Shown in pieces: positions 25,275 to 63,749 of a stretch of 64,000 nucleotides of DNA. The stretch is taken from assembly GCF_021653975.1 (NCBI RefSeq), contig NZ_JAJKFK010000001.1, positions 62,001-126,000 of the forward strand, given 5' to 3'. The position numbers and the translations under genes are program-made. How positions within the stretch are numbered: the first letter of the stretch is position 1; each line of letters opens with the position of its first letter. The DNA comes from Amycolatopsis sp. GM8. Lineage in GTDB: Bacteria; Actinomycetota; Actinomycetes; Mycobacteriales; Pseudonocardiaceae. The notes below the pieces were generated by a model that searched no databases, was not told the origin of the DNA, and was given only the letters and a program-made list of their open reading frames with translations.

Positions 25275-25292
25275 GTCAACATCAGAGTTGAC
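25275..25292. promoter_or_regulatory. Island operator GTCAAC-N6-GTTGAC (amidohydrolase A promoter)
   Basis: GTCAACATCAGAGTTGAC is a perfect match to both arms. It spans the stop codon of the P450 gene and lies 58 bp upstream of amidohydrolase A. On the minus strand its half forms the -35 TTGACT, with TAACGT 17 bp downstream (25251-25256). Confidence 0.75.
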
Positions 25293-26496
25293 GGCCGGTC
25301 CAGACGGCCACGTTCTCCTTCTGCCCCTTGGGGAACTGGATGGGGCACTTGATGACGCCCTGCACCTGGGCGTTCGACCACTGCGCCCGCGCGCCCGGCT
25401 GCGGGGTGAACTCCGGGATGCGGCGGAGCCATTCCTCCAGCAGCACACGGAGTTCGACGCGCGCGACGTGGATGCCGAGGCACTTGTGGATGTAGTGGCC
25501 GAAGGCGAGGTGCTTGGTGCTGTTGGCCCGGTCCAGCCGGAACTCGGTGGCATTGGGGAAGGTGCGCTCGTCGCGGCCCGCCGCGCCCAGCAGCAGGAGC
25601 ATCTGCTCGCCCGCCTTGATCGGGCAGCCGGCGACCTCGGTGTCCTGGGCGACCTTGCGGGTCCCGATCACCGGCGAGTACAGGCGCAGGAACTCCTCGA
25701 CCGCGGCACCGGCCTGGTCGCGGTCGGCGGCGAGCCCGGCGAGCAGCCCGGGATCGTTGGCCAGGCGCCAGAACATCGAGCCGATGACCTTCTGGCTGGT
25801 GTCGATGCTGGCCAGCAGCAGGAACAGCGCGAACCCGAGCAGCTGCTCCTGGGTCAGCTTCTCGCCCTCGATCTCGGCGCGGCAGATGATCGAGATGAGG
25901 TCGTCGCCGTCGGAACCGGCGCGCTCGGCGAACAGGCCACCGAAGTAGGTGTAGATCTGCGTGACCGCTTCGATGGCGGCTTCGGGGCGGCTGGTGGTCT
26001 CGTGCACCAGGGCGTGGATCCACTGCTGCAACCGCTGGCCGTCCTCCAGCGGGACGCCGAGGAACACCGTCGCGAGCAGCGCCGGCAGTGGCACGGCCAT
26101 CGACTCGAAGGCGTCGCACTCGCCGTCCTCGATGAACTCGTCAATGAGGTCGTTGACGATCTTCCGCAGCGGCTCTTCGTAGGACTGGGCGCGCTTCGGC
26201 GAGAAGGGCTCGGCCACGAGTGCCCGGTACCGCTGGTGGTCCGGCGGGTCGATCTCGACCGGGATCATCTTGTTGGGCTGCGGGAACGACGGGAAGCTCG
26301 CCGGGTAGGAGGAGAACACGGCCGGGTCGCGCATGATCTTGACCTGCTCTTCGTAGCCGGTCACGACCCACATGCCGCCGTGCGCGTCGCTGTGCCCGAC
26401 CGGACACTTGTCGAGCATATCGGCCCAGTGCTCGAAAACGGTGTCGTAGGACTCGTTCAAAGCGTGGTGGTCGTAGTTCTTGTACTCCGCGGTCAT
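25282..26496 (-). CDS. Cytochrome P450 with atypical heme signature (P450 A)
   Basis: A 404-residue bacterial class-I type P450. The ExxR helix is EEFLRLYSP. The Cys-ligand loop reads FGHYIHKCLG, where Tyr replaces the second Gly of FGxGxHxCxG. The I-helix is LLASIDTSQ, with Ser in place of the usual Gly of AGxDT. The Thr and Asp of the oxygen-activation motif are kept. It probably hydroxylates the island's substrate, receiving electrons from a ferredoxin. It lies between the ADH/AveC-like operon and amidohydrolase A. The ATG at 26496 has no strong ribosome site. Confidence 0.9.
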   Translation of the reverse strand: MTAEYKNYDHHALNESYDTVFEHWADMLDKCPVGHSDAHGGMWVVTGYEEQVKIMRDPAVFSSYPASFPSFPQPNKMIPVEIDPPDHQRYRALVAEPFSPKRAQSYEEPLRKIVNDLIDEFIEDGECDAFESMAVPLPALLATVFLGVPLEDGQRLQQWIHALVHETTSRPEAAIEAVTQIYTYFGGLFAERAGSDGDDLISIICRAEIEGEKLTQEQLLGFALFLLLASIDTSQKVIGSMFWRLANDPGLLAGLAADRDQAGAAVEEFLRLYSPVIGTRKVAQDTEVAGCPIKAGEQMLLLLGAAGRDERTFPNATEFRLDRANSTKHLAFGHYIHKCLGIHVARVELRVLLEEWLRRIPEFTPQPGARAQWSNAQVQGVIKCPIQFPKGQKENVAVWTGRQL

Positions 26497-26587
26497 TGCG
26501 GTGCCTCGATTCGTGAAGCGTGGACCCAGTCAAGTTCAGAGCGAATCAATCCGTGCGGTTTCGGTCACGAGTAGCGACTACTCCCCG

Positions 26588-26620
26588 CACCACCGGTGTC
26601 CACACAGGACACCGGTGGTG
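26588..26620 (-). terminator. Terminator between the ADH operon and the P450 A gene
   Basis: A perfect 14-bp stem, CACCACCGGTGTCC with a 5-nt loop and its complement, lies 6 bp beyond the stop of the AveC-like gene on the minus strand. Confidence 0.8.
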
Positions 26621-26625
26621 ACTAC

Positions 26626-27499: not shown

Positions 27500-28576
27500 T
27501 CAGGCCAGGACACCGCGGAGCACCTCGCCGGCCGCGGTGGCCCGGAAGGCCTCGTTGACGTCGTCGAGCTTGAACTCGCGCGAAACCATGTTGCGCAGGT
27601 CCAGCTGACCGGACTCGACGAGCGAGACGTACTTCGGGAAGTCGCGGCTCGGGATGGACGAGCCACCGAAGCTGCTCACGACGCTCTTCCCGCTGTAGAT
27701 GAAGGAAAGCCCGTGCAGCGAGATGTTCTCGGTCGGCTTCATGACGCCGACGACGACCGCGGTGCCGGCCGAGCGCACCGAGTCAACGGTCGCGCTGACA
27801 GTCGCGGGCGAGCCGACCACCTCGAAGCCGTAGTCGGCGCCACGGCCGTCGGTGAGCTCCTTGACGACCTCCGCCACCTCGGCGTCGCCCGGGTCGACGA
27901 CATCGGTCGCGCCCAGCCGCAGCGCGGCCTTCCGCTTGAGGTCGACCGGGTCGACCGCGATGATCCGCTCGGCGCCCGCGATCCGGGCCCCCTGGATGAC
28001 CGACTGGCCCACGCCACCCGCACCGAACACGACGACCGACGAGCCGGGTTGCACTTTGGCGGTGTTGAGCACCGCGCCGACGCCGGTGGTGATCGCGCAG
28101 CCGATCAGCGCCAGCTGGGTGTCGGGCAGATCCGACTCGACCGGCACCACGAGCCGCTCGTCGACCGTCATCGTCTCGGCCATCGTGCCGAGGCCGCCGA
28201 GGCAGGGCAGGTGCGTGCCGTCGCCGCGCAGCGCGTGGGGCTTGGCGTGGAACTGCATGGTCTCGGCGCAGACGAACGCCATTCCGTTGCGACAATGCCA
28301 GCACTCGCCACAGGAGACGATGAACGAGCTGATCACCCGCTGGCCGGCCTTGACGGTGCTGACGTCCTCGCCGACGGCCTCGACGATGCCCGCGCCCTCG
28401 TGGCCGAGTACCGCCGGGGGCGGGAAGGGCAGGGTACCGTCCACGAGGGACAGGTCGGAGTGACACACCCCGGACGCGGTGATGCGGACGAGGATGTCAC
28501 GGGGACCCAGCGGCAGCGGCTCGACCTCCTCGACCGAGATGGGCTCGTTCACTCCGACGAACAGGGCTGCTTTCAT
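27500..28576 (-). CDS. Zinc-dependent alcohol dehydrogenase (MDR superfamily)
   Basis: A 358-residue medium-chain dehydrogenase. Catalytic-zinc residues lie in ASGVCHSD (about 35-42) and GHEGAG (about 58-63), and the structural-zinc cysteines in CGECWHCRNGMAFVC. The Rossmann motif is VVVFGAGGVGQS near 180. It probably oxidises an alcohol produced by P450 hydroxylation to an aldehyde or ketone using NAD, or a tightly bound cofactor as in mycofactocin-linked relatives. The ATG at 28576 follows GGGAGAC. It is divergent from the LAL regulator gene and co-transcribed with the AveC-like gene. Confidence 0.9.
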   Translation of the reverse strand: MKAALFVGVNEPISVEEVEPLPLGPRDILVRITASGVCHSDLSLVDGTLPFPPPAVLGHEGAGIVEAVGEDVSTVKAGQRVISSFIVSCGECWHCRNGMAFVCAETMQFHAKPHALRGDGTHLPCLGGLGTMAETMTVDERLVVPVESDLPDTQLALIGCAITTGVGAVLNTAKVQPGSSVVVFGAGGVGQSVIQGARIAGAERIIAVDPVDLKRKAALRLGATDVVDPGDAEVAEVVKELTDGRGADYGFEVVGSPATVSATVDSVRSAGTAVVVGVMKPTENISLHGLSFIYSGKSVVSSFGGSSIPSRDFPKYVSLVESGQLDLRNMVSREFKLDDVNEAFRATAAGEVLRGVLA

Positions 28577-28700
28577 CTGCTGTCTCCCTCCACGGGCTTC
28601 ATTGATCGCTCTGGCGGATTCCACCCGTCACGTGGCGTGGGGCACAGGAGTACCGACTACTTCGCTTGCGCGGCCGGCGGCACGGGGTAGACCTTGGGAT

Positions 28701-28756
28701 TTGGTGTGACGGCGCCCACGTCCTATGATCCGAGGGTTGTCAGCACCGACGTTGAC
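28701..28756 (+). promoter_or_regulatory. Promoter and operator of the LAL regulator gene
   Basis: A -35 TTGGTG (28701-28706), 17-bp spacer and -10 TATGAT (28724-28729) predict a start near 28736. The operator GTCAGCACCGACGTTGAC (28739-28756; one arm mismatch) lies just after it, a classic repression position. The gene starts at GTG 28776. Confidence 0.6.
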
Positions 28757-28775: not shown

Positions 28776-31433
28776 GTGAGTCGCGGATCGACGACCATCA
28801 GCGCTGAATGGCCGTTTGTGGGACGCAGCAGTGAACTCGACCGGATCCGGGAACTCATCGGTGACCCCGACTGCCGCGGCGCGGTGATCGCCGGGCCGCC
28901 CGGGGTCGGCAAGACCCGCCTGGCCGTCGAATGCCTGAACCTCGCCGCCGGCGAGGACTACGAGGTCGCCAGAGCGACGGCCACCGGGGCGCAGTCGCAG
29001 ATCCCGCTGGCCGCGCTGTCGCACCTGCTCTCCTCCACCAGACTGAAGAGCAATCTCGGCGCCGCGCCCGACCAGCCCGAAGCCCTGCTGCGGGCCCGCC
29101 GTGCCATCGCGTCGCTCGCGGCCGGCGGGCGGCTCGTGCTGATGATCGACGACGCGCACCTGCTCGACGAGACGAGCGCGACGGTGATCTACCAGCTCAT
29201 CGCCGCGAACGAGGCGTTCGTGCTGCTCACCGTCCGTGCCGAGGAACCGTCGCCGGAGGTGCTGGTCACCGCCTGGAAGGACGACCAGATCACGCGCATC
29301 GAGCTGGCCGGGCTCGCCACCGAGGCGGTCGGCGAGCTGCTCGGCGAGGTGCTCGGGCACGTCGATCCCGACGCGGTCGAGGTCTTCGCCGACCACGCCG
29401 AGCAGAACGCGCTGGTGCTGCGCGAACTTGTCCTCGGCGCGGTCCGCGACGGTGCCCTGACCTGCGCCGAAGGCATGTGGCGGCTGCGCGGCGAGCTGAC
29501 CCCGTCGGCCCGGCTGATCGAGCTGATCGAGACCCGGCTGCGCACCCTCGACGACGACGACCGCGCGCTGGCCGAGGTGATCGCGGTCGGCGAACCGTTG
29601 ACGCTGACCGAACTCGCCGCGCTCGGCGATCTGCGCCGCGCGGAAAAGCTGGAGCGGCAAGGAATCGTGGGCTGCGAACGGGTCGGTGCCGTCGTCATCG
29701 CGCGGCTCGCGCACCCGGTGTACGCGGAGGTGCTGCGCGCCCGGCTGCCGATGCTGCGGGTGCAGGCGATCGCGGACCAGCTCGCCGACAGCATCGGGGC
29801 CCCGACCGAACCCGCGGCGATGCTGCGGCTGGGCCGGTTGCTGCTGCTGAGCGGGCGCCGGGATCCGGAACGGCTGCTGGCGGCGGCGCGCACGGCGCGC
29901 TGGAGCTACGCGATCGGGCTCGCCGAGGAGCTCGTCAACGCCTCGCTGCAGTTCGAGCGATGTTTCGAGGCCGAACTGTTCGCGGCGGGTCTCGCGGGGC
30001 TGCGCGGCCGGTGGCAGGAGGCGGACGACCAGCTCGCCCGGCTGATGGCCGAGGCGTCCGACGACGGGCAGCGCGCCCGGGTCACCATTGCCGCGATGGA
30101 CAACTGCCTGTACGCGGGACTTCCGGAGAAGCAGCTGGCGCTGGCCGAGGCCGGGCGCACCGAGGTGGCCGATCCGGTGTGGCGCGACGAGATCCTCGCC
30201 CGCAGCTCCCCCGTGCTGGTCATGTCGCGCGGCCCGGAGGCGACCTGGTCCGCGGTCGAGGACCTGCTCTACCGCGCGTCCGGCGCGACCTTCGTCTGGG
30301 CGTCGCTGACCGGCGCCCACGCCCAAGGCCGCCGCGGCGGGACCCAGCGGGCGCTCGAACTGACCTACCGCGGGCACACGGCGCAGCTCGCGCTGGCCGA
30401 GCCGATCGCCTGGTACCCGTGGTTCCACCACTACAACCGCTGCGAAATCCTGCTGATGACCGGCCGCTGCGCCGAGGCCGAGGCGCTCGCGCAAGACGAG
30501 CACCGGCGGGCCGTGCGGGTGCACTCCGCGGAGGCTCAGGCGTCGTTCGCGTCGCAGCTCGCGCTGATCCTGACGGCGCAGGGCCGGGTGCGCACGGCGG
30601 CGAAGTACGCGCGCGAGTCGATCGCGATCTTCGCCGACCTCGGGCGGCCGATGTTCCACCGGCAGAGCGCGCAGCGGCTCGCGATGGCACTGGCCCTGGG
30701 CGGTGAGGTCGCCGAGGCCGAAGAGGTGCTGGAGCAGTGCGCGGACGAGTCCGATCCGGCGTACCTCTACAACGCCTCCGACGTGCTGCACACGCACGCG
30801 TGGGTCGCCGCCGCGGGCGGGCGGCTGGCGAAGGCCCGCGCCTGGCTCGACGAGATGCTGGCGCTGACCGAAAACATCGGTGACCGGGTGGGACAGTCGG
30901 TCGCGCTGCATTCGCTGGTCCGCCTGATGGACGGGCAGCGCACCGACGAGCTGCTCGCCCGTTTCGAGGCGCTCGGCGAGCATCTGGACGGCGAGTTCTA
31001 CGCGGCCCGGCTGCTGCACGTCCAGGGCCTGCACTCCGGTGACCCGGCGACACTGGAGAAGGCCGCGCACGAGTTCGCGTCGGCGGGGGCGTTCGCGCTG
31101 GCGGTCGAGGCCGCGGCGGACGCGGCGACCCGGTGGGAGAAGCACGGCGAACCGCGCCGCCGCACCGCGGTCAGTCACCTGGCGCGCAACTATCTGGCGC
31201 AGTGCGAGGGAATCACGCCGACGCTGCGGTCGATCTCCAGCCGGTCGGCGCTGACGGCGGCCGAGCGGGCGACCGCGGAACTGGCGGCACGCGGGTATTC
31301 GAACCGGGCGATCGCCGACGAGCTGGTGTTGTCCGTGCGCAGCATCGAAAACCGGCTGCAGCGCGCGTACGAGAAGCTCGCCATCAACAGGCGTGAGGAA
31401 CTGGCCGAGGCGCTCAAGTTCGAGCCGACCTGA
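28776..31433 (+). CDS. LAL-family (large ATP-binding LuxR-type) transcriptional activator
   Basis: An 885-residue regulator of the MalT/LAL type. Walker A GPPGVGKTR begins near residue 40, and Walker B LMIDDAHLLDE lies near 125. A long helical TPR-like region follows. The C-terminal LuxR helix-turn-helix is ARGYSNRAIADELVLSVRSI (about 845-864). LAL proteins bind ATP and an inducer and activate catabolic or antibiotic genes. I chose the GTG at 28776 because it has AGGGAGCCGAG upstream; the ATG at 28725 would place the operator inside the gene. It likely activates part of this island. Confidence 0.9.
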   Translation: MSRGSTTISAEWPFVGRSSELDRIRELIGDPDCRGAVIAGPPGVGKTRLAVECLNLAAGEDYEVARATATGAQSQIPLAALSHLLSSTRLKSNLGAAPDQPEALLRARRAIASLAAGGRLVLMIDDAHLLDETSATVIYQLIAANEAFVLLTVRAEEPSPEVLVTAWKDDQITRIELAGLATEAVGELLGEVLGHVDPDAVEVFADHAEQNALVLRELVLGAVRDGALTCAEGMWRLRGELTPSARLIELIETRLRTLDDDDRALAEVIAVGEPLTLTELAALGDLRRAEKLERQGIVGCERVGAVVIARLAHPVYAEVLRARLPMLRVQAIADQLADSIGAPTEPAAMLRLGRLLLLSGRRDPERLLAAARTARWSYAIGLAEELVNASLQFERCFEAELFAAGLAGLRGRWQEADDQLARLMAEASDDGQRARVTIAAMDNCLYAGLPEKQLALAEAGRTEVADPVWRDEILARSSPVLVMSRGPEATWSAVEDLLYRASGATFVWASLTGAHAQGRRGGTQRALELTYRGHTAQLALAEPIAWYPWFHHYNRCEILLMTGRCAEAEALAQDEHRRAVRVHSAEAQASFASQLALILTAQGRVRTAAKYARESIAIFADLGRPMFHRQSAQRLAMALALGGEVAEAEEVLEQCADESDPAYLYNASDVLHTHAWVAAAGGRLAKARAWLDEMLALTENIGDRVGQSVALHSLVRLMDGQRTDELLARFEALGEHLDGEFYAARLLHVQGLHSGDPATLEKAAHEFASAGAFALAVEAAADAATRWEKHGEPRRRTAVSHLARNYLAQCEGITPTLRSISSRSALTAAERATAELAARGYSNRAIADELVLSVRSIENRLQRAYEKLAINRREELAEALKFEPT

Positions 31434-31450
31434 TCAACGGACTCGTTGAT
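31433..31450. promoter_or_regulatory. Island operator copy after the LAL gene
   Basis: ATCAACGGACTCGTTGAT has perfect symmetric arms (20 bp if the flanking G/C pair is counted) and begins at the LAL stop codon. It precedes a decayed gene, so it may be a leftover promoter or part of a terminator. Confidence 0.5.
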
Positions 31451-31919: not shown

Positions 31920-31937
31920 ATCAACGGAGGGGTTGTA
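31920..31937. promoter_or_regulatory. Island operator over the TetR ribosome site
   Basis: ATCAACGGAGGGGTTGTA covers the Shine-Dalgarno GGAGGGG and the A of the TetR start codon. It matches the island operator with two arm mismatches and suggests autoregulation. Because the purine core is also a ribosome site, chance cannot be excluded. Confidence 0.5.
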
Positions 31938-32578
31938 TGGCCAAGAGCGGGATCGATGCCCGCCGCAAGGCGGCGTTGGAGGAGGGCAGCGCCGGCTACC
32001 TGGCACGCCGCGCCGAGATCATCAGCGTCGCGGCCGATGTGTTCCGCAAGCACGGATTCGAGTCGGCGACGCTGCTCGACGTGGCCAACGCGCTGGGCAC
32101 CGACCGCGCCTCGCTGTACTACTACGTGGGCAGCAAGGAAGAGCTGCTGCAGGAGATCGTCCGGCACGCGCTGAAGAACGTCGGCGACGTCGCGGAGCGG
32201 ATCAAGCGCGGCCGCAAGAGCACGCCGGACAAGATCCGGGCACTCATCGACTCGATGGTCGGCAACTACGTCGAGAACTACCCGCACATGAGCATCTACA
32301 CCGAGGATCTCGGCCGGATCTCCCGCCAGGACAGCGAGTGGGCGGTCGACGTGATCGACCAGACCCGCCGGTACGAGAAGGTGGTGCGCTCGATCATCGC
32401 GAAGGGACAGCGCGACGGCACGCTGCGCACCGACGTGCCGCTGGACCTCGCGGTGCTGTCACTGTTCGGGATGATCAACTGGATGCACCGGTGGTACCGC
32501 CCCGAGCTCAAGTACGACGCCGACGAGCTTTCGGCGACGTTCGCGCGGGTCTTCCTGGAGGGCAACGCCACGCGGTAG
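31937..32578 (+). CDS. TetR-family regulator, probable master repressor of the island
   Basis: A 213-residue TetR protein. The DNA-binding helices read AADVFRKHGFESATLLDVAN and LGTDRASLYYYVGSKEELL (about residues 34-75). The C-terminal ligand domain resembles those of KstR/FadR-like lipid and CoA-thioester sensors in actinobacteria. The start ATG at 31937 sits in a perfect ribosome-site context. An operator-like repeat overlaps that site, and copies of the same repeat lie at almost all island promoters. It is the natural candidate for their repressor, with an acyl-CoA or related intermediate as inducer. This link is inference. Confidence 0.88.
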   Translation: MAKSGIDARRKAALEEGSAGYLARRAEIISVAADVFRKHGFESATLLDVANALGTDRASLYYYVGSKEELLQEIVRHALKNVGDVAERIKRGRKSTPDKIRALIDSMVGNYVENYPHMSIYTEDLGRISRQDSEWAVDVIDQTRRYEKVVRSIIAKGQRDGTLRTDVPLDLAVLSLFGMINWMHRWYRPELKYDADELSATFARVFLEGNATR

Positions 32579-32591: not shown

Positions 32592-32628
32592 CCGCCCGTG
32601 GTCAACGTACGCGTTGGCCGCGGGCGTT
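32592..32628 (+). terminator. Terminator of the TetR gene, containing an operator-like sequence
   Basis: CGCCCGTGGTCAACG and CGTTGGCCGCGGGCG pair with a few G-U contacts around a short loop and are followed by TTTT. The loop region also reads GTCAACGTACGCGTTGGC (32601-32618), but the hairpin explains the symmetry. Confidence 0.65.
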
Positions 32629-32675: not shown

Positions 32676-32727
32676 TTGCACCGGCCCGTGGCGGCGGGCT
32701 AATCTCGGAATCAACATGGACGTTGAC
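32676..32727 (+). promoter_or_regulatory. Promoter and operator of ribBA
   Basis: A -35 TTGCAC (32676-32681), 18-bp spacer and -10 TAATCT (32700-32705) predict a start near 32712. That is inside the operator ATCAACATGGACGTTGAC (32710-32727), which has one mismatch in the outer base. Confidence 0.6.
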
Positions 32728-32745: not shown

Positions 32746-34014
32746 ATGTCTACCGAGCTGGCTACCACGGACTTCACCGCATCCGGCACCCTCGCCGGCG
32801 TCGACACGCTCGACCGGGCGGTCGCGGCGCTCGCGGAGGGCCGGATGGTGGTGGTCGTCGACGACGACCAGCGGGAGAACGAATGCGATCTCGTGGTCGG
32901 GGCGGAGGACATCACCGTCGAGCAGATGGCGTTCATGGTGCGGCACGGCACGGGCATCGTGTGCGTGCCGATGGAGGGCGAGCGGCTCGACCAGCTGCGC
33001 CTGCCGCCGATGTCGCCGACGAACACCGAGGCGCATCACACCGCGTTCAGCGTTTCCGTTGACCACGCCGGCACCAGCACGGGCGTGTCGGCGGCGGACC
33101 GGGTGGCGACGGTGCGCGCGCTGGCCGACCCCGCGACCGGGCCGTCCGATCTGCGGCGGCCAGGGCACATCTTCCCGCTGCGCTACTGCGAAGGCGGCAC
33201 GGTGCGCCGCGCGGGCCACACCGAGGCGGCCGTCGACCTGTTAAAGATGGCGGGCAAGTCCCCGGTCGGCGTCATCTGCGAGCTGGTGAACGACGACGGG
33301 ACGATGTGCCGCCCGGGGGATCTCGCCCAGTTCGCCCGCGAGCACGACCTGCCCGTGGTGACGGTGGCGGACCTGGTGCGCTACCGGCGCGCGACGGAGC
33401 GGCTGGTGGTCGAGACCGGGACGGCGCTGCTGCCGACCACGTACGGGATCTGCCGGGCCACGGCGTTCCGTTCGCTGCTGGACGACGAAGAGCACGTGGC
33501 GCTGGTGTTCGGCGACGTCACCGCGACCGGCCCGGACGACCCGGGCGTGCTGGTCCGGGTGCACAGCGAATGCCTGACGGGGGACGCGTTCGGCTCGCTG
33601 AAGTGCGACTGCGGTACGCAGCTCGACCAGGCGATGGAGATGATCGCCGCGGAGGGGCGCGGGATCGTGGTGTACCTGCGCGGGCACGAGGGTCGCGGGA
33701 TCGGGCTGGGGCACAAGCTGCGGGCGTACGCGCTGCAGGAGCGGGGCCGGGACACGGTCGACGCGAACCGGGATCTGGGGCTGCCGGTGGACAAGCGGCA
33801 GTACGGCGTGGGCGCGACGATCGTCGCCGCGCTGGGCGCCCGCAGGATCCGCCTGATCACCAACAACCCGGCGAAGTACGGCGGTTTGCAGGGCTTCGAC
33901 CTGGAGATCGCGGGGCGGGTGGACATCCCGCCGGTGGTGACTTCGGAGAACCTGTCGTACCTGCGCACGAAGCGCGACCGCATGGGCCACGACATCCGCC
34001 TGACGGGAAGCTGA
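32746..34014 (+). CDS. ribBA: Bifunctional riboflavin enzyme RibBA (DHBP synthase / GTP cyclohydrolase II)
   Basis: A 422-residue fusion. The N-terminal half is 3,4-dihydroxy-2-butanone-4-phosphate synthase; its acidic loop reads DDDQRENECDL instead of the common DDxDRENEGDL, and GHTEAAVDLLKMAGKSPVGV is normal. The C-terminal half is GTP cyclohydrolase II with the zinc cysteines in HSECLTGDAFGSLKCDCGTQ and RGHEGRGIGLGHKLRAYALQ. Together they make the two precursors of riboflavin, and the GTP branch also feeds F420. The start ATG at 32746 has GAGGAAGAGG upstream; an in-frame ATG at 32716 lies inside the operator. Its place in a catabolic island is unusual. Confidence 0.92.
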   Translation: MSTELATTDFTASGTLAGVDTLDRAVAALAEGRMVVVVDDDQRENECDLVVGAEDITVEQMAFMVRHGTGIVCVPMEGERLDQLRLPPMSPTNTEAHHTAFSVSVDHAGTSTGVSAADRVATVRALADPATGPSDLRRPGHIFPLRYCEGGTVRRAGHTEAAVDLLKMAGKSPVGVICELVNDDGTMCRPGDLAQFAREHDLPVVTVADLVRYRRATERLVVETGTALLPTTYGICRATAFRSLLDDEEHVALVFGDVTATGPDDPGVLVRVHSECLTGDAFGSLKCDCGTQLDQAMEMIAAEGRGIVVYLRGHEGRGIGLGHKLRAYALQERGRDTVDANRDLGLPVDKRQYGVGATIVAALGARRIRLITNNPAKYGGLQGFDLEIAGRVDIPPVVTSENLSYLRTKRDRMGHDIRLTGS

Positions 34015-35600: not shown

Positions 35601-35612
35601 TTCGGTTTCTCC

Positions 35613-37091: not shown

Positions 37092-37110
37092 TTCCCGCCT
37101 TCCCCGGGCC

Positions 37111-38448: not shown

Positions 38449-38467
38449 CCACTAGGGAGTGCCGACG

Positions 38468-52833: not shown

Positions 52834-52851
52834 TGCACCAGCCCCGTTCCA

Positions 52852-54090: not shown

Positions 54091-54135
54091 TTGACTCTCG
54101 CAATCAACAGTGGTGTTGTCAACGTATGTGTTGGA
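54091..54135. promoter_or_regulatory. Two overlapping island operators at the acyl-CoA ligase start
   Basis: ATCAACAGTGGTGTTGTC (54103-54120) and GTCAACGTATGTGTTGGA (54118-54135) overlap by 3 bp. A -35 TTGACT (54091-54096), 17-bp spacer and -10 TGTTGT (54114-54119) predict a leaderless start at the ATG 54126. Confidence 0.65.
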
Positions 54136-55577
54136 AGAATCGACACACCACGCCCGCTGTGCTGGCCGCGGTCGCGCGAGAGCATCCGGACCGGACGTTC
54201 GTCATCGCCGAGGACGGCGAGCTGACCTACGGTATGACGGCGCGGCGGGTGCACGAACTCGCCCGGCACTTCGCCGCACTCGGTCTGCGGCCGGGCGAAC
54301 GCGTCGGCCTGCTGCTGCCGAACGGGGCGCGCTGGATCATCAGCTATCTCGCCGCGCACGCCGCCGGACTCGTCGTGGTCCCGCTCAACACCTGGTACCG
54401 CGAGGCCGAACTCGCCAAGGTGACCGAACGCGCGGAACTGCGCCTGATCGTCACCGAGGACTACCTCGCAACGCTGGACCCTGAAGCACCGGACGGCGAC
54501 CCCCTGGAGGCGCTGGAAAACGCGCCGGTCACCGGGGACGACGACGCGCTGGTGCTGTTCACCAGCGGCAGCTCCGCCGAACCCAAGGCCGTGCGGCTCA
54601 CCCAGCGCGGGATCGTCACCAACGCGTACGCCGTCGGGGAACGGCAGGGCGTGCGCGAGGGCGACCGGATCTGGTTCGGCTCGCCGCTGTTCTTCGTCTA
54701 CGGCTGCGCCAACGCCATCGTCAACACGCTGACCCACGCGATCACCTTGTGCGTGCAGGAACGCTTCGAGGCCGCCGCCGCGCTCGCGTTCATCGAACGG
54801 CACCGGTGCACGGTGTACTACGGCGTCGCGCCGATCACCCGCGCGCTCGCCGCGTGCGAGGACCTGGCGCGCCGGGACATCTCGTCGCTGCGCACCGGAA
54901 CCGGGAACGCGACGCCGGAAGACCTGCGCCTGACCATCGAGGTGCTGGGCGTGCGCGAGGTCTGCAACGCCTACGGCCTCACCGAGGGCTACGGGCATTC
55001 CACGATCACCGCCCACACCGACCCGCCCGAAGTGCGGATGACGTCGCAGGGCACGGCCCTGCCCACGCAGGAAATCCGGATCGTCGCCGACGGCGGCCCG
55101 GCCGGCGCGGACGTGCCGGGCGAGATCCAGATCCGCGGCACCGTCACCCCCGGCTACCTCGACTCCCCGGGCGCCTTCACCGGGGACGGCTGGTTCCGCA
55201 CCGGCGACGTCGGGAGTCTCGGCGCCGCCGGGCGGTTGACTTATGCCGGCCGGGCCAACGAGATGATGAAGGTCAAGGGCATCAACATCTCCCCGGTCGA
55301 AGTGGAGCTGGTGCTGGCCGGGCACCCCGGCGTCGACGACGCGTACGTGTTCGGCGTCCCGACGCCCGAGGGCGACGAGGAGGTCGGCTGCGTGCTCGTC
55401 TCGACGGTGCCGCGGACCGAGCACGGCGTGCTGGTGGCCGAGGTCCAGGAGTTCGTGCGTGCCCACGCGGCGTCCTACAAGGTGCCGACGAACGTCCGGG
55501 TACTCACGGCCGACCAGCTGCCGCTCACCGCGACCGGCAAGGTCTCCCGGCGCGCGCTGAAGGAGGGCGCGCGCTGA
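54126..55577 (+). CDS. Acyl-CoA synthetase (AMP-forming)
   Basis: A 483-residue ANL ligase. The ATP loop is LFTSGSSAEPKAV (about 143-155), the adenylate motif YGLTEGYGHS (about 285) and GWFRTGD. The hinge is GRANEMMKVKGINISPVEVE, and the catalytic Lys lies in TATGKVSRRAL at the end. It is shorter than most long-chain ligases and fits cyclic or aromatic acids. It would activate the acid made by the aldehyde dehydrogenases. The start ATG 54126 lies inside an operator and is probably leaderless. Confidence 0.88.
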   Translation: MCWKNRHTTPAVLAAVAREHPDRTFVIAEDGELTYGMTARRVHELARHFAALGLRPGERVGLLLPNGARWIISYLAAHAAGLVVVPLNTWYREAELAKVTERAELRLIVTEDYLATLDPEAPDGDPLEALENAPVTGDDDALVLFTSGSSAEPKAVRLTQRGIVTNAYAVGERQGVREGDRIWFGSPLFFVYGCANAIVNTLTHAITLCVQERFEAAAALAFIERHRCTVYYGVAPITRALAACEDLARRDISSLRTGTGNATPEDLRLTIEVLGVREVCNAYGLTEGYGHSTITAHTDPPEVRMTSQGTALPTQEIRIVADGGPAGADVPGEIQIRGTVTPGYLDSPGAFTGDGWFRTGDVGSLGAAGRLTYAGRANEMMKVKGINISPVEVELVLAGHPGVDDAYVFGVPTPEGDEEVGCVLVSTVPRTEHGVLVAEVQEFVRAHAASYKVPTNVRVLTADQLPLTATGKVSRRALKEGAR

Positions 55578-57387: not shown

Positions 57388-57405
57388 GTCAACTGCTATG
57401 TTGAC
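57388..57405. promoter_or_regulatory. Island operator between P450 B and the ferredoxin reductase
   Basis: GTCAACTGCTATGTTGAC, a perfect copy. It covers the ATG at 57398 of the ferredoxin reductase. TACTGT (57384-57389) could be the rightward -10 giving a near-leaderless message. Confidence 0.75.
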
Positions 57406-58537
57406 TGGCGTGAATCAGCGCGAGACCGACCCTGTCGTCGTGGTCGGCGCCGGCCTCGCCGGCAGCCGGACCTGCACCGAACTGCGCAAGCGGGGCTACG
57501 GCGGGCCCATCGTCCTGATCGGCGACGAGGCCACGAAGCCGTACGACCGTCCTCCACTGTCCAAAGGCGTCATCCGTGGCAAGCGGGAACCCAAGCCGCT
57601 CAAGGCGGACTACGAGGGCCTGGACATCGACCTGCGCCTGGAAACGAAGGCCGAGTCGGTCGACCTCGCGGGACGCCGCGTGCTCACCAGCGGCGGGCCG
57701 ATCGCGTTCGGCAGCCTGGTGATCGCGACCGGCGCGACACCGGTGCGGCTGCCCGGCACCGGCGAACAACTGTTGCTGCGCACCGGAAACGACGCGCTGG
57801 CGCTGCGCGACCGGCTTGGGTCGGGCGCCCGGGTGGTCGTCATCGGCGCCGGGTGGATCGGCGCGGAGGTGGCGCACGCGGCGCTCGAACGCGGCTGCGC
57901 GGTCGTGGGGCTGGAGTACCAGAGCGCGCCGCTCGCGCAGGCGCTCGGCGCCGAGATCGGCGCTCGTTTCGCGGATTGGTGGGGCGGGACACTGCGCACG
58001 GGTGTGCGCGTCGCGGCCGTCGAACCGGACGGGGTGCACCTGGAAGGCGGCGAGGTGATCCCCGCGGACACCGTCGTCACCGGTGTCGGGGTGCGGCCCG
58101 CGACGGCGTGGCTGGCCGGGTCGGGACTGGAGCTGCTGCCCGCGGTCGCGGTCGACGAACGGCTCCGCGCGGGCGTTCCGGATGTGTACGCGCTCGGCGA
58201 CGCCGCGGCGTGGTGGTCGCCGCGCTTCGGCCGCCGGATGGACGTGCAACACTGGGACGACGCGTACAGCGCGCCTTCGGTGGTGGCGCAGGGCATCATC
58301 GGCGGCGAGGGCCCGGAGTCCGTGCACGATCCGGTGCCGTACTTCTGGAGCGACCAGTTCGGCCACCGTATCGAGTACGTCGGCCACCACAGCGCGGACG
58401 ACGCGCTCGCCGTGGACACCGTCGAGGGAGCCTGGTCGGCCCGCTGGACGGACGCGGAAGGGCGGCTCACCGCGGCACTGGCCGTCGACGCGCCGAAGCT
58501 CATTCCCGTGCTGCGCAAGGAGATCGCGGCCGTCTGA
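57398..58537 (+). CDS. NAD(P)H-dependent ferredoxin reductase (FAD, FNR/AlkT-like)
   Basis: A 379-residue flavoprotein with two Rossmann motifs: the FAD motif VVVVGAGLAGSRTCTELRKRG (N-terminus) and the NAD(P)H motif VVVIGAGWIGAEVAHAALERG (about 145-165). The FAD-closing GVPDVYALGDAAAW and the C-terminal dimer domain follow. These enzymes feed electrons to ferredoxins of P450 or Rieske systems. The start ATG 57398 lies in the operator; a GTG at 57410 is possible. It is divergent from P450 B, which it probably serves. Confidence 0.9.
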   Translation: MLTGVNQRETDPVVVVGAGLAGSRTCTELRKRGYGGPIVLIGDEATKPYDRPPLSKGVIRGKREPKPLKADYEGLDIDLRLETKAESVDLAGRRVLTSGGPIAFGSLVIATGATPVRLPGTGEQLLLRTGNDALALRDRLGSGARVVVIGAGWIGAEVAHAALERGCAVVGLEYQSAPLAQALGAEIGARFADWWGGTLRTGVRVAAVEPDGVHLEGGEVIPADTVVTGVGVRPATAWLAGSGLELLPAVAVDERLRAGVPDVYALGDAAAWWSPRFGRRMDVQHWDDAYSAPSVVAQGIIGGEGPESVHDPVPYFWSDQFGHRIEYVGHHSADDALAVDTVEGAWSARWTDAEGRLTAALAVDAPKLIPVLRKEIAAV

Positions 58538-58776: not shown

Positions 58777-59103
58777 CTATTCCTGCGGTACCTCGACGAA
58801 GATCTCGCCGTCGGTGACCGACACCGGGTACGTGGCCACCGGCTCCTCGGCGGGCAGGCCGCTGACCTCACCGGTACGCACGTTGAAGCGCGACCCGTGC
58901 TCCGGGCACTCGACGTCCTCGCCGTCCAGGTCGCCCTCGCTCAGCTCGATCTCTTCGTGGCTGCACACGTCGCTGATCGCGAACACGTCGCCGCCGGCGA
59001 GGCGCGCCAGGCAGATCGGCAGGCCGCCCACCTCGACGCGCTTCAGCCCGGCCGGCTCGAGATCGGCCAGCTTGGCGACCGCGCACCGTGCTTTCGTGGC
59101 CAT
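58777..59103 (-). CDS. Rieske-type [2Fe-2S] ferredoxin
   Basis: A 108-residue small Rieske ferredoxin. The cluster ligands are CSHEE (CxH, about residues 45-49) and CPEHGSRF (CxxH, about 64-71). Such proteins pass electrons from a flavin reductase to a Rieske oxygenase or, less commonly, a P450. No Rieske oxygenase large subunit is present in the window, so the P450s are the likely acceptors. The start ATG is at 59103. It is the last gene of the amidohydrolase D operon. Confidence 0.88.
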   Translation of the reverse strand: MATKARCAVAKLADLEPAGLKRVEVGGLPICLARLAGGDVFAISDVCSHEEIELSEGDLDGEDVECPEHGSRFNVRTGEVSGLPAEEPVATYPVSVTDGEIFVEVPQE

Positions 59104-59148
59104 CGGTTGCTCGTCCCTTCTCATTTTTCTCCGGTTCGCGGCCGGGCC

Positions 59149-60606
59149 TCAGCCCGCCGCCTGGCGGTACCCCGCGGGCAACGCCATCGACTTCGGCCGC
59201 AGGAAGCTCTCCAGCCCCTCCACCGCGCGCTCGGCCCCGAGGCCGGACTGCTTGCGGCCCGCGAAGGGACCGCCGCCGCCCGCGGCCGGGCCGCCGTTCA
59301 CCTGCACCGTGCCGGTGACGATCCGCTCCGCGACGGCCAGCGCCTCCTCGGTGTCGTTGCCGAACACCGCGCCGCCGAGGCCGTACTTGCTGTCGTTCGC
59401 GATCGCCACGGCTTCGTCAACGTCAGCGTAGGTGATGACGGACAGCACCGGGCCGAAGATCTCCTCCTGCGCGATCTCCATCTTGTTGTCCACGTCCACG
59501 AACACGGTCGGCTCGACGTACCAGCCCTTGTCGTGCCCGGCGGGCCGTCCTCCGCCTGCCACGACCTTCGCGCCGCCGGCGAGTCCCGAGGCGATGAAGC
59601 GCTCGACGATGTCGCGCTGGCGCTCCGCCGCGACCGGCCCGAAGTCGGTGTCCGGCTCGTGCGGGTCGCCCACCTTCATCGCCGAGAGCCGCTCGACGAG
59701 CTGGCCGACGACCCGGTCGCGGTCGTCCTCGTGCACCACGACCCGGTTCGTGGACACGCAGATCTGCCCGCTGTTGCGCAGCGAGCCGCCGATCAGCGCG
59801 GGCACGTACGGCGTCATGTCGGTCCCGGGCAGCACGACCGCCGCCGACTTCCCGCCCAGTTCCAGCGTCACCCCGCGCAGCCGCGCGGCGCACGCGGCGG
59901 CGATCGCCCGCCCGCCGCCCGGGCTCCCGGTGAACGTCACGAAGTCGACGCCCTCGTGCTCGACGAGGTGGGCGCCGACTTCGACACCGCCGTTGACGAT
60001 ACTGATCAGGCCTTCGGGCAACCCGGCGTCGAGGGCGGCTTCGCCGATCAGATACGCGCTCAGCGGGCACTCCGGCGCCGGTTTCACCACGATCGGGCAG
60101 CCCATCAGCAGCGACGGGAAGATCTTCGACAGCTCGACCGCGATCGGCGAGTTCCACGGCGTCACGCCGGCGACCACGCCGACCGGTTCGAGGACGACGA
60201 CCACGTCGCCGACCACACCGTCGCGGACCTCGCGGAACTTGATCGTGCCCGCGTCGGAGATCAACCGCTCCAGCGACGGCCGGATCCCGTCGAAGTTCTC
60301 GACGGCGAACTTGCGGGTGGCGCCCATTTCGTCGGTCTGGAGCGTGATGGCCTGCTCGCGCCGGGTCTCGAGCGCGTCCACGAACCGGCGCAGGTACGCG
60401 GCGCGCTCGTCGAGGCTCAGCCGCGGCCAGTCGCCCTCGTCGAACGCACGCCGGGCGGCCGCGACCGCGGCATCGACCTCGCCGGTGGTGGCGACCGGAA
60501 CGCGGCCCACGATGTCCTCTGTGGACGGTGACACGACTTCGAGCACCTCGCTGCCCGCCGCCGGCAGCCAGGCGCCGCCGATGAAGTGGTCCTCGCGTTC
60601 GAACAT
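59149..60606 (-). CDS. Aldehyde dehydrogenase (ALDH B)
   Basis: A 485-residue aldehyde dehydrogenase. GVTPWNSPI is the NAD-binding loop, the general base Glu lies in LELGGKSAAVV and the nucleophile Cys in NSGQICVSTNR. It resembles geranial or cinnamaldehyde-type dehydrogenases by motif but no substrate can be set. It sits in the operon of amidohydrolase D, mycofactocin SDR and LLM enzyme, and starts 24 bp after the LLM stop. Confidence 0.92.
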   Translation of the reverse strand: MFEREDHFIGGAWLPAAGSEVLEVVSPSTEDIVGRVPVATTGEVDAAVAAARRAFDEGDWPRLSLDERAAYLRRFVDALETRREQAITLQTDEMGATRKFAVENFDGIRPSLERLISDAGTIKFREVRDGVVGDVVVVLEPVGVVAGVTPWNSPIAVELSKIFPSLLMGCPIVVKPAPECPLSAYLIGEAALDAGLPEGLISIVNGGVEVGAHLVEHEGVDFVTFTGSPGGGRAIAAACAARLRGVTLELGGKSAAVVLPGTDMTPYVPALIGGSLRNSGQICVSTNRVVVHEDDRDRVVGQLVERLSAMKVGDPHEPDTDFGPVAAERQRDIVERFIASGLAGGAKVVAGGGRPAGHDKGWYVEPTVFVDVDNKMEIAQEEIFGPVLSVITYADVDEAVAIANDSKYGLGGAVFGNDTEEALAVAERIVTGTVQVNGGPAAGGGGPFAGRKQSGLGAERAVEGLESFLRPKSMALPAGYRQAAG

Positions 60607-60630
60607 CCTCGCAGCCTTTCTCGGTGGGGA

Positions 60631-61551
60631 CTACGCCGCGCGCAGCGCTTCGAGCAGCCGGGCGAGGTCGGTCAGGTCGATCCCGTAGTAGCTCAGCGGG
60701 ACGGTGAAATGGGTGACGCCGACGCCCGTCAGGCGGCGCGCGCGCTCGATCGCCCGCTCGATGAGGTCGTCGGCCGACGTGGCCGAGTCCCAGTCGGCGG
60801 TGGCGGTGAGCGACACGCGGATCCCGACGCTCGCCGGGTCCCGCCCGTACTTCTCACACGCCGCGCGGATGGCCTCGGCCGATTCGGCCACCTCGTCGTA
60901 GTCCGCGGCCTCCCGGGCGAGCCAGCCCTCGCCGAGCGTCGCGACGCGACGCGCGGTCGGTTTGCTCCGCGCGTTGCCGCCCCACCACACCGGCACCCCG
61001 CCCGGCGTCGTCGGCGCGGGCTCGCAGATCACGTCCTTGAACTCGGTCCAGCGTCCCTGAAACGACGACAGGCCGGGCGACCACAGCTCCTGGCAGGCGC
61101 GGATGGTCTCCTCGGTGCGGGCGGCCCGTTCCCGCGGCGGGATGCCCATCTGCTCGAACTCGGCCGCGTTCCAGCCGCCGCCGACCCCGAGCACGAACCG
61201 GCCGCCGGAGATCACGTCGAGCGTCGCCGCCTGGCGGGCGAGCACCGCGAACGAATGCGCGGCCGCCAGGAGAATCCCGGAGAACATCTTGATCCTCGTC
61301 GTCCGCGCCGCGATGGCCGCGAACATCACGAGCGTGTCCGAGCGGTCCGATTGCTGCTCCACCCGGCCGTGGTGGAAGTTGCCCGAACCGCCCGGATGGT
61401 CCATCTCCGCCGCGTACAGGATGTGCTCGCCGTCCATCACGTCGTCGAACCCGATGCGCTCGAGTTCGGCGACGAAGGCCGGGATCTGCCGCAACGACGG
61501 GACGTAGGACGGGACCAGCCCGGGGAGTTTCACCCCGAAGGAGGCGTCCAT
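60631..61551 (-). CDS. LLM-class flavin- or F420-dependent oxidoreductase
   Basis: A 306-residue luciferase-like TIM-barrel enzyme. Motifs are GFDDVMDGEHI (about 33-43), FSGILLAAAHSFAVLARQAA, LDVISGGRFVLGVGGGWN and the closing VGVTHFTVPLSYYG. The bulge and GGR.xLGVGxGW stretch are typical of F420- or FMN-dependent members. It may catalyse an oxidation, a Baeyer-Villiger step or a reduction. It overlaps tightly with the mycofactocin SDR (3 bp gap). The co-regulated ribBA could support its flavin or F420 supply. Confidence 0.87.
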   Translation of the reverse strand: MDASFGVKLPGLVPSYVPSLRQIPAFVAELERIGFDDVMDGEHILYAAEMDHPGGSGNFHHGRVEQQSDRSDTLVMFAAIAARTTRIKMFSGILLAAAHSFAVLARQAATLDVISGGRFVLGVGGGWNAAEFEQMGIPPRERAARTEETIRACQELWSPGLSSFQGRWTEFKDVICEPAPTTPGGVPVWWGGNARSKPTARRVATLGEGWLAREAADYDEVAESAEAIRAACEKYGRDPASVGIRVSLTATADWDSATSADDLIERAIERARRLTGVGVTHFTVPLSYYGIDLTDLARLLEALRAA

Positions 61552-61554
61552 GTC

Positions 61555-62394
61555 TCAGTAGATCCCGCGGGCCGGCCCGAGCAGGCCGATCTCGGCGACC
61601 TGCCCGCTGATCAGCCCGCGGTCGGTCACCAGGTACAGGATCGTGCGGGACACGTCCTCCGGTTCCAGGTACCGCACCCCGTTGAGGCCGTAGTCGAGGT
61701 CGTCCAGCCGCTGCTGGAACTGCTCGCGGGTGGGGTTCTCCAGGTCCGGGCAGAAGATGTCGTACGTCGGCTGGTTGAAGAACAGGTCGGTGCCCACCGC
61801 ACCGGGGCAGATGGCGTTGACGGTGATGCCGTCGCCCGCCACCTCGAGCGCGGTGGTCTTGACCAGTCCGATGACGCCCCACTTGGCGGCGATGTAGTGC
61901 CCCAGGTTGGGCGCCGTCTGCCGCGCGCCCATCGAGGACGTCGCCACGATGCGGCCGTAGCGCTGCTCGCGCATGCGCGGGAGGACAGCCCGGATCGTCT
62001 TGAAGATCCCGGTCAGGTTGGTGTCGATGATCGTCGACCACGACTCGTCCGACGTCTTCTCCACCGTCGAGAAGTCGACGATCCCGTGGTTGGCCAGCAG
62101 GATGTCCAGCCGGCCGAACTCCGCGATCGTCCCTGCCACGGCGTCGTCGACCTGCGCGGTGTCCCGCGCGTCCATGACCACGCCCCGCGCCCGCACGCCC
62201 AGCTCTTCGACGAGCTTGACGGTCTCCGCCAGCTGTTCTTCGGTCGCCATCGGGTAGCCGAGCACCGGCACGTCCGCGCAGCTGTCGGCGACCACGATGT
62301 CCGCGCCCTCGGCGGCCAGCGCGAGCGCGTGCGCCCGCCCCTGGCCGCGCGCGCCGCCCGTGATGAACGCGACCCGCCCGTCGAGCTGTCCCAT
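61555..62394 (-). CDS. Mycofactocin-coupled SDR oxidoreductase
   Basis: A 279-residue SDR of the mycofactocin-associated group. TGGARGQGRAHALALAAEGA begins the fold. A long insert follows the second strand (DSCADVPVLGYPMATEEQLA), and FCPDLENPTREQFQ is the subgroup's signature. The catalytic stretch is TSSMGARQTAPNLGHYIAAK. It would oxidise an alcohol with electrons passed to mycofactocin. It follows the amidohydrolase D stop by 28 bp. Confidence 0.88.
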   Translation of the reverse strand: MGQLDGRVAFITGGARGQGRAHALALAAEGADIVVADSCADVPVLGYPMATEEQLAETVKLVEELGVRARGVVMDARDTAQVDDAVAGTIAEFGRLDILLANHGIVDFSTVEKTSDESWSTIIDTNLTGIFKTIRAVLPRMREQRYGRIVATSSMGARQTAPNLGHYIAAKWGVIGLVKTTALEVAGDGITVNAICPGAVGTDLFFNQPTYDIFCPDLENPTREQFQQRLDDLDYGLNGVRYLEPEDVSRTILYLVTDRGLISGQVAEIGLLGPARGIY

Positions 62395-62422
62395 TCCGGT
62401 CCTTCCCTCCGTGCCGCGCCGC

Positions 62423-63643
62423 TCAGACGTCGATCTTGTACAGCTTGGCCGCGTTGTCCTGCACGATCTTGCGGATGATGTGCGGCGGCAGGCCGTAGAG
62501 CTTCTCCTCCGACCGCTCGACCGGCGACGGGTAGAGGCTCGTCGGGTGCGGGAAGTCGGTCTCCCACAGGACGTTGTCCGCGCCGATGCGGTCCAGCAGC
62601 GCGAGCGGGCCCGCGTCCTCGAACCAGAAGGTGCCGAAGACGCCCTTGCCGAACATCTCCTTCGCCGGCGGCAGCTCCGGGTCCGAACCGCCGGGGAACT
62701 CCTCGCGGTACTCGTAGTCGATGCGCTCGAGGATGTAGGGGATCCAGCCGATGCCGGACTCCACGCTGACCCAGTTCAGCTTCGGGTACCGGATGAGCAC
62801 GTCGGAGGCGCACAGGTTCGACACGAAGCGCGAGTTCGACAGCTCGGTCTGGATCGAGCGGACCGGCTTGGCCGCACGCTCGGGCAGCGACGGCCACGCG
62901 GCGCCGCCCTGCTCGCCCTTCCAGTTCCGCGCGCCGATGTGGATGTTGATCGGCAGTTCGAGGTCGGAGAGCACCTCGTAGAGCGGGTACCAGTGCTCGG
63001 TGCCGAGGTCGGGCAGGCCGCCCTGGTGCGGCTCGCCGGCCATCAGCACGCCGGTGAGGCCGATGTCCTTGGCGCGCTTGGCCTCCGCGACCGACTGCTC
63101 GATGTCCCAGAACGGCAGCATGGCCTGTGGCAGCAGCCGCTCATCGCCTTCGGCCTGCCATTCGCGCATGGCGTCGTTGTAGATCTGGCAGATCACGTAG
63201 GACAGGTCCCGGTCCAGGTTCTGCACCATGGCCGGGGCGGCGAAGCCCATGATGTTGGGGTAGACGATCTGGGCGTAGACACCCATCTCGTCCATCAGCT
63301 CGACCCGCGGTTTGGCCTCGACGGCGGCGGCGTGGATCTCGTCCTTGCTGCCGCCGATCTGGCTCTTGTCGCGGTCGTACTCCTGCATGTCGGCGCCGTA
63401 GTACGGGATCTTCTCGCCGGCCTTGTTCACGAAGGCGATGCTGTTGTTCCTCGACAGCTTCTTGTCGCCGTCGACGAACCAGTAGCTCTGCCCATCGGTG
63501 TCAGTCCGCGTCTGGGGGACCCGGTCCGCGTACTTCGCCGGCGCCCGCGAGGTCCAGAGGTCCTCCGCCTCGGTGACGTGCGTGTCCGCGTCGATCAACT
63601 TGAGGCCTGCGAAGGGGCCACTCTGCCGCGGCTTGTAGGTCAT
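62423..63643 (-). CDS. Amidohydrolase-2 family protein (paralogue D)
   Basis: A 406-residue TIM-barrel hydrolase. The metal motif is IDADTHVTEAEDLW (about 17-30), with NIHIGARNW, WVSVESGIGWIP and LWETDFPHPTSLYP later. The TDFPHPTSLYP ending separates it from paralogues A-C. It is the first gene of a five-gene operon (amidohydrolase D, SDR, LLM, ALDH B, Rieske) whose leftward promoter overlaps the operator at 63708. It shares this region with the rightward gene at 63782. Confidence 0.85.
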   Translation of the reverse strand: MTYKPRQSGPFAGLKLIDADTHVTEAEDLWTSRAPAKYADRVPQTRTDTDGQSYWFVDGDKKLSRNNSIAFVNKAGEKIPYYGADMQEYDRDKSQIGGSKDEIHAAAVEAKPRVELMDEMGVYAQIVYPNIMGFAAPAMVQNLDRDLSYVICQIYNDAMREWQAEGDERLLPQAMLPFWDIEQSVAEAKRAKDIGLTGVLMAGEPHQGGLPDLGTEHWYPLYEVLSDLELPINIHIGARNWKGEQGGAAWPSLPERAAKPVRSIQTELSNSRFVSNLCASDVLIRYPKLNWVSVESGIGWIPYILERIDYEYREEFPGGSDPELPPAKEMFGKGVFGTFWFEDAGPLALLDRIGADNVLWETDFPHPTSLYPSPVERSEEKLYGLPPHIIRKIVQDNAAKLYKIDV

Positions 63644-63707
63644 CTGCCCGCCTTTCGACTACGGCGTCGGGGGTACCCGGATGACCGTGCCACCTGCGGC
63701 CCGACTT

Positions 63708-63749
63708 GTCAACATCAGTGTTTATCGCAGACTCAACGGCTCCGTTGAC
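63708..63749. promoter_or_regulatory. Two island operators in a divergent promoter region
   Basis: GTCAACATCAGTGTTTAT (63708-63725) and CTCAACGGCTCCGTTGAC (63732-63749). The second supplies a rightward -35 TTGACA; TACGTT (63769-63774), 18 bp downstream, is the -10, giving a leaderless start at 63782. Confidence 0.65.

Follow-up and report, generated by a model that had tools for sequence, protein, structure and literature searches.

A GTCAAC-N6-GTTGAC palindrome and its probable TetR regulators in a gene island of Amycolatopsis sp. GM8

Described TetR systems and the Amycolatopsis palindrome

KstR2 (Rv3557c) of Mycobacterium is one of the described TetR regulators closest to the system considered here. 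According to the available part of its description, KstR2 recognizes the operator AnCAAGnnCTTGnT, with an N2 centre, at three sites per genome, and these operators lie in divergent promoters, near the start codons of cholesterol degradation genes, in mycobacteria and rhodococci (PMC3068626). Its ligands are given as coenzyme A (CoA) derivatives in the available part of a second source (PMC13176608). In the 8.16-Mb genome of Amycolatopsis sp. GM8, copies of a different palindrome, GTCAAC-N6-GTTGAC, recur across a gene island on contig NZ_JAJKFK010000001.1 (C1). The window, meaning the whole stretch of DNA analyzed, covers 64,000 nucleotides of this contig (C1:62001-126000), so that window position 25275 corresponds to C1:87275; coordinates without a contig name are window positions. 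Two paralogous TetR proteins are candidate repressors, TetR A (31937..32578, plus strand) and TetR B (C1:130422-131060, beyond the window).

KstR2 shares the TetR fold (4w1u, TMt 0.91 to a model of TetR B) and, as far as the available text goes, the divergent promoters, the operator near start codons, and the catabolic targets (PMC3068626). However, the island motif, with its fixed N6, differs from AnCAAGnnCTTGnT (PMC3068626, in part), as the initial annotation had held. Orthology with KstR2 was not supported (E 4e-18 with TetR B, 1e-13 with TetR A), other chains scoring better. PfmR of Thermus thermophilus (3vpr, TMt 0.90) is the nearest fold and the best PDB sequence match, but has another recognition helix. 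AibR and Bacillus FadR, whose entry titles name isovaleryl-CoA or stearoyl-CoA, are near folds at only about 17-23% identity. For KstR, whose operator is TnnAACnnGTTnnA, the difference in spacing that was also claimed rests on the motif as quoted in that annotation; no perfect GTCAAC-GTTGAC pair was found at a KstR-like spacer of 2 in 76 loci holding relatives of TetR A and B, the spacer here being 6. Three further systems are compared within the available parts of their sources. EdcR of Caenibius tardaugens is likewise a TetR repressor with a promoter-overlapping palindrome, in a sphingomonad catabolic cluster, but its palindrome, TnnCnnTACnAnTnGTAnnGnnA, overlaps the -10 box, unlike the island operator (PMC8700777). 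SRTF1, also a TetR, belongs to a steroid-responsive gene island in which it has several sites, but its palindrome is 22 bp long, the comparison being by length only (PMC7062782). SimR of Streptomyces antibioticus, also a TetR, has an N-terminal extension for minor-groove binding (reference title in PMC5812520), but its two operators control an efflux pump. No description of a GTCAAC-N6-GTTGAC operator or of a DRASLYYY helix was found among the open-access titles and abstracts listed, although one may exist.

The palindrome is interpreted here as the operator of a TetR subfamily with the recognition helix DRA(S/T)(L/I)YYY, which would repress through overlap with the -35 box and be released by a pathway intermediate (probability of about 0.82). 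This interpretation, in which binding, repression, ligand class, and substrate are inferred, builds on computed site clustering, TetR-subfamily pairing, promoter position, and -10 spacing. A dimer of a TetR protein with this helix and a conserved N-terminal arm would bind GTCAAC-R-N4-Y-GTTGAC, the TTGAC-containing arms of which would serve as the -35 box of outward promoters, and the bound repressor would block RNA polymerase, often between divergent genes. A pathway intermediate, most likely an acyl-CoA thioester, would release the repressor and turn on about 15 intergenic promoter regions across roughly 50 kb. The induced products would comprise an ABC transporter and a LAL regulator besides a range of enzymes, namely P450s and their redox partners, SDRs, LLM flavin oxidoreductases, amidohydrolases, CoA ligases and transferases, enzymes of beta-oxidation, and a spare RibBA to provide flavin. 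The operator appears to be new and is widely shared, within a well-known kind of TetR control.

Pairing of the palindrome with a TetR subfamily

Relatives were searched with an alignment of TetR A and B, using peptide patterns that included DRASLYYY; DNA sites were no selection criterion. From 313 relatives, the best 79 loci were fetched, extending up to 10 kb to each side. Pairing counts refer to 76 of these (L045-L120, 1.26 Mb) from Actinomycetota and Pseudomonadota; the three others (L121-L123), which carry other helices, hold no sites. The 76 loci contain 171 sites with at most one mismatch, whereas 25 permuted arms gave 4.1 on average and 20 at most. Perfect arms occur 69 times at a spacer of 6, once each at 5 and 12, and at no other spacer between 0 and 13. 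A site with at most one mismatch is present in 66 of the 76 loci, and in 39 of the 76 a site is close to the TetR gene, no more than 450 bp before or 300 bp after it. Outside the hexamers, R7 and Y12 are preferred, giving GTCAAC-R-N4-Y-GTTGAC. On the protein side, DRASLYYY is invariant in a 52-row subfamily alignment, and across the subfamily the TetR domain follows an N-terminal arm, the consensus of which is SGIGxRRxAAxxxGxxxYxxRR (for example, residues 1-25 of the protein at L016:4422-5063).

The pairing has also been followed in larger samples. Ten whole genomes picked for their site-holding loci carry 32 of 38 perfect copies on the TetR-bearing contig, with two control matches; in one of them, three of four perfect copies are on contigs other than that of the TetR. 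Among 150 family genomes, six besides that of the window have a TetR at 1e-30, and each of them holds one to three perfect copies (control matches, 0); among the matches listed, four of the six have these on the contig of the TetR, at distances of up to about 12 kb. A 296-genome phylum set yielded only the window's own genome at a TetR cut of 1e-45, which was probably too strict. In a plasmid search, four records matched, and the three fetched (Rhodococcus ruber YC-YT1, Sphingobium xenophagum pSH1, and Sphingopyxis sp. FD7) all have perfect copies between annotated genes, their TetR helices being DRASLYYY, DRATIYYY, and DRATLYYY. By this pairing of subfamily and site, a TetR like the one encoded at 31937 is the most likely regulator, in line with the TetR-type regulator proposed in the initial annotation.

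Two side observations concern copies without this TetR. The exact 18-mer GTCAACCGATCGGTTGAC occurs in three family genomes that lack it at 1e-30 (G143:C51:106847, G026:C18:58743, and G008:C18:88628), and may there be read by a different regulator. In Acrocarpospora macrocephala (G152:C83:26674-45524), a contig that has no subfamily TetR at 1e-30 bears three perfect copies.

In the Amycolatopsis genome, six of the seven perfect copies fall within 49 kb (C1:87275-136314). Places with at most one mismatch number 46, compared with 17 for the reversed pattern, and are found in C1:87275-138604 (18), elsewhere in the window (1), and elsewhere in the genome (27). A matrix was built from 170 distinct sites with at most one mismatch in the 76 loci, all from other genomes. 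Within 120 kb (C1:42001-162000), it gave 22 hits scoring at least 15.5, all in C1:87275-136386, and none in the flanking 45 kb on the left or 25 kb on the right of the cluster, which extends 10-13 kb past the right end of the window. According to a gene table drawn by hand, with some starts set past sites, 20 of the 22 hits are intergenic and 21 are at gene borders; a P450 frame contains the copy at 26140 and is overlapped at its end by that at 25275. A scan of the genome had been recommended in the initial annotation, and the perfect copies are concentrated in the island. Of the 27 places elsewhere, 19 were inspected, and 14 of these, among them the seventh perfect copy (C18:146120), are inside reading frames. 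A pair 3.5 kb apart (C1:312264 and C1:315733) was considered as an outlying target and rejected, both copies being inside reading frames. No tRNA gene was found in 120 kb around the island, and base composition shows no marked shift across it (66-71% G+C in 5-kb steps).

TetR A (TetR_N and TetR_C_24 domains) and TetR B both score above cut-off for PF00440 and PF17932, placing them in the TetR family, and they share 59% identity and an identical recognition helix, DRASLYYY. It had been claimed that the TetR encoded at 31937 was the best candidate because of a copy at 31920 over its own ribosome site. This is not supported, since that copy is at chance level and the paralog TetR B has the same helix and a one-mismatch copy 56 bp before its start. 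The 31920 copy was rejected as TetR A's own site because it has three mismatches, of which about 25 per 64 kb are expected by chance, and is outside the 22 matrix hits; a symmetric two-mismatch copy is present at 31433, some 490 bp upstream of TetR A. The model of TetR B (pLDDT 89.3) matches TetR chains and shows an additional helix at the N terminus (residues 3-16), in which arginines are nearly invariant. PfmR and KstR2 are its closest folds, with AibR and FadR also among the neighbours; KstR2, AibR, and FadR point to an acyl-CoA effector.

A matching island is found in Mycolicibacterium sp. CBMA 234, which shares the LAL regulator, RibBA, P450s, LLMs, amidohydrolases, and more, with protein identities of mostly 45-89% and a few lower, and which has 16 sites with at most one mismatch in 80 kb. 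This genome has a single subfamily TetR at 1e-30, located in the place of TetR B, downstream of the corresponding amidohydrolase, but grouping with TetR A in a tree (97/91), so that A and B stay tied. It is probable that the two share the operator in Amycolatopsis. Operator copies are kept between the two islands while their flanks diverge. This is clearest at 57388, where all 18 bp of the copy, and 24 bp in total, are identical in Mycolicibacterium, although this copy overlaps a possible start codon, and at the amidohydrolase/PrpD promoter, both copies of which (63708 and 63732) are kept. In Mycolicibacterium, RibBA and LAL each adjoin a site. The N6 centre of 25275 is also identical in Mycolicibacterium, which may be chance because the copy there sits at a non-orthologous promoter.

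Promoter architecture and mode of control

Read outward, each operator arm is GTTGAC and contains TTGAC, a -35 box. Beyond the 378 arms of 189 sites, TANNNT was found 10, 29, and 25 times at spacers of 16, 17, and 18, respectively, and in 0-5 arms at each of the other 15 spacers between 8 and 25; the 64 arms with spacers of 16-18 derive from 38 loci. A -10 is present on at least one side of 59 of the 189 sites and on both sides of 5, compared with at most 1 for shifted windows. For 192 of 340 arms, the start of an open reading frame is no more than 300 bp away, compared with 14% of random places. The arms thus appear, from their sequence, to double as outward -35 boxes, and covering of the -35 box would be the simplest reading of repression. 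Some TetR-family members activate (FasR is a named activator), and the regulator might accordingly be an activator or a dual regulator instead of a simple repressor; this is unlikely, because the arms are at -35 spacing from -10 boxes and the measured sites either overlap likely start codons or are about 17 to 95 bp away, which is the usual position for a repressor.

It is less likely still that another regulator reads the palindrome, either the LAL-type LuxR protein encoded at 28776 or TetR C (C1:140970), which is just past the last site. Both are near sites, and the Mycolicibacterium island likewise has LAL, next to a site. However, TetR C is a distant relative with a different recognition helix, and at E 1e-15 and half coverage, LAL homologs were found in none and TetR C homologs in two of the 79 fetched loci, where sites are common, although the reach of these loci, up to 10 kb per side, leaves the Mycolicibacterium LAL outside its fetched locus. 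That the repeats are nothing more than the -35 boxes of strong promoters placed back to back, as the TTGAC in the arms and the -10 boxes 16-18 bp beyond might suggest, is the least credible alternative, because such promoters would not need a fixed N6 (69 perfect copies vs at most 1 at other spacers), the R7/Y12 preference outside the hexamers, or an association with one TetR subfamily across phyla, and a strict -10 is on both sides in only 5 of 189 sites.

Several observations weigh against operator function for the DRA(S/T)(L/I)YYY subfamily as proposed here, or against parts of it. The evidence is split between TetR A and TetR B, both of which are candidate repressors on sequence grounds. 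The constancy of the DRASLYYY helix is partly built in, because the search patterns included it. No site with at most one mismatch is present in 10 of the 76 loci, four of which are shorter than 14 kb, and some of the 76 are near copies of one another, so their counts are not independent. Perfect copies occur in 49 of 143 family genomes without the TetR at 1e-30, so that single copies mean little. In the Amycolatopsis genome, five of the 19 inspected places off the island are intergenic or at a 5' end, and 107 kb of off-island DNA, fetched for its matches, gave seven matrix hits of at least 15.5, three of them of at least 18.5. At the promoters, a strict -10 at the right spacing accompanies only 3 of the 19 sites of the window and its right flank (25275, 44867, and 63732), and the -10 hardly predicts gene direction, since an open reading frame start is faced by 38 of the 61 arms that have one and by 154 of the 279 that lack it. 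Lastly, DarR, structures of which hold nucleotides, is also a fold neighbour of the TetR B model; because of this nucleotide binder, the acyl-CoA thioester suggested by the model remains a guess as effector. CoA ligase and transferase genes are among the predicted targets.

A wider proposal, put forward tentatively and with somewhat less than even confidence, is that operator and repressor form a portable cassette of Actinomycetota and Pseudomonadota, in which a double-headed -35 operator would recruit divergent catabolic promoters to one repressor sensing a CoA thioester, with a riboflavin gene included in three genomes. If so, an otherwise uncharacterised degradation network for cyclic compounds could be found by motif search in any genome. 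Because regulator, operator, and targets are readable together across two phyla, the operator becomes a probe for uncharacterised enzymes of one pathway, and it links genes that are usually annotated apart, those for LLM oxidoreductases, amidohydrolases, and P450s together with a spare gene for riboflavin. The cross-phylum reach and the fixed N6 palindrome doubling as a promoter element are more than expected of an ordinary local repressor. If binding is confirmed, the TetR-operator pair could be used as a portable promoter-repressor part.

Operator copies and genes of the island

All 15 coordinates listed in the initial annotation match the palindrome with zero to three mismatches, and the four copies described there as perfect in both arms (25275, 43266, 44867, and 57388) are so. 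One mismatch was found at four others (28739, 32710, 38314, and 63732), two at six (43301, 48535, 48569, 54103, 54118, and 63708), and three at 31920. Copies beyond that list are present at 31433, 32601, 38308, and 38385, and one-mismatch copies inside genes at 26140, 27782, and 52705. The 64 kb hold 69 matches with at most three mismatches, compared with 24.8 +/- 5.1 in 100 shuffles (largest 39); weak copies alone therefore prove little, and the strong copies decide. Sites occupy 10 or 11 intergenic regions of the window and 4 or 5 more beyond it, and those of the window serve about 17 units, judged by gene orientation. Of the claim that one operator controls the whole island, the sharing of sites at these ten or eleven window regions stands, and the control itself is predicted from the sites.

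At the left end, the perfect copy 25275..25292, a matrix hit with a left -10 TAACGT at spacer 17, is upstream of an Amidohydro_2 gene (23919..25217, minus) and overlaps the P450 gene noted above (25282..26496, minus). A one-mismatch hit, 28739..28756, lies between a zinc-type alcohol dehydrogenase (27500..28624, minus) and the LAL-type LuxR gene (28776..31433, plus, likely start 28776), which may encode a second-tier regulator. The symmetric two-mismatch copy 31433..31450 (matrix score 18.7) is at the LAL end, upstream of TetR A. RibBA, with DHBP synthase and GTP cyclohydrolase II domains (32746..34014, plus, likely start 32746), is directly preceded by a one-mismatch hit, 32710..32727; another one-mismatch copy, 32601..32618, lies between TetR A and RibBA and is under the matrix cut of 15.5. 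Two overlapping copies, 38308..38331, of which 38308 is the matrix hit, are upstream of a minus-strand group encoding a binding protein, an aldehyde dehydrogenase, and a mycofactocin-type SDR (34770..38244), and a two-mismatch hit, 38385..38402, lies between the binding-protein gene and an Amidohydro_2 gene (38459..39679, plus).

Further right, the perfect hit 43266..43283 is upstream of genes for an ABC ATPase, a permease, and an SDR (39732..43170, minus), and a second, two-mismatch copy nearby, 43301..43318, is under the cut. The perfect hit 44867..44884, with a left -10 TAGCGT, lies between an Amidohydro_2 gene (43420..44808, minus, start near 44808) and genes for an SDR and a SnoaL-like protein (44902..46286, plus). 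Two hits with two mismatches each, 48535..48552 and 48569..48586, share the divergent promoter between PrpD-like and SDR genes (46302..48502, minus) and a CaiB-type CoA-transferase gene (48610..51195, plus), the product of which has a strong CoA_transf_3 stretch at 446-837 plus a second stretch. Two overlapping copies, 54103..54135, which are among the matrix hits, separate genes for a CoA-transferase, a thiolase, and a ChsH2-type OB-fold partner (51290..54087, minus) from an acyl-CoA ligase gene (54126..55577, plus, start 54126 or 54159). The perfect hit 57388..57405 lies between a P450 gene (56034..57329, minus) and a ferredoxin reductase gene (57398..58537, plus) and overlaps the possible start codon at 57398. 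Lastly, 63708..63725 (two mismatches) and 63732..63749 (one mismatch, right -10 TACGTT, spacer 18) are both hits and, the former with a Mycolicibacterium counterpart, lie between a minus-strand group for an amidohydrolase, a mycofactocin-type SDR, an LLM oxidoreductase, an aldehyde dehydrogenase, and a Rieske ferredoxin (58777..63643) and a plus-strand PrpD-like gene.

The island probably degrades ring-shaped natural compounds, and its gene content fits a pathway acting on cyclic ketones or terpenoid-like compounds, the genes being the guide to the substrate. In the other loci, genes for acyl-CoA and 3-hydroxyacyl-CoA dehydrogenases, for SDR homologs, and for monooxygenases of the FMO-like (Baeyer-Villiger-type) kind are frequent neighbours; of the 24 members of the main FMO cluster, 18 carry a site at the 5' end, and the largest non-TetR protein cluster spans 55 of the fetched loci. 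In Sphingobium xenophagum pSH1 (L135:7948-9986), a DUF2889-ribB pair faces the TetR gene across a perfect operator, ribB being the second gene of a likely operon whose divergent promoter is shared with the TetR, and P450, LLM, and TonB-receptor genes near this pair carry sites of their own. No RibBA match was found in the remaining fetched loci, so the riboflavin link is not general. The Amycolatopsis genome has two DHBP synthase genes, and the RibBA of the island is the site-bearing one. As a minor observation, a one-mismatch copy (C16:427122) is present about 156 bp upstream of the second DHBP synthase domain (C16:426388-426966).

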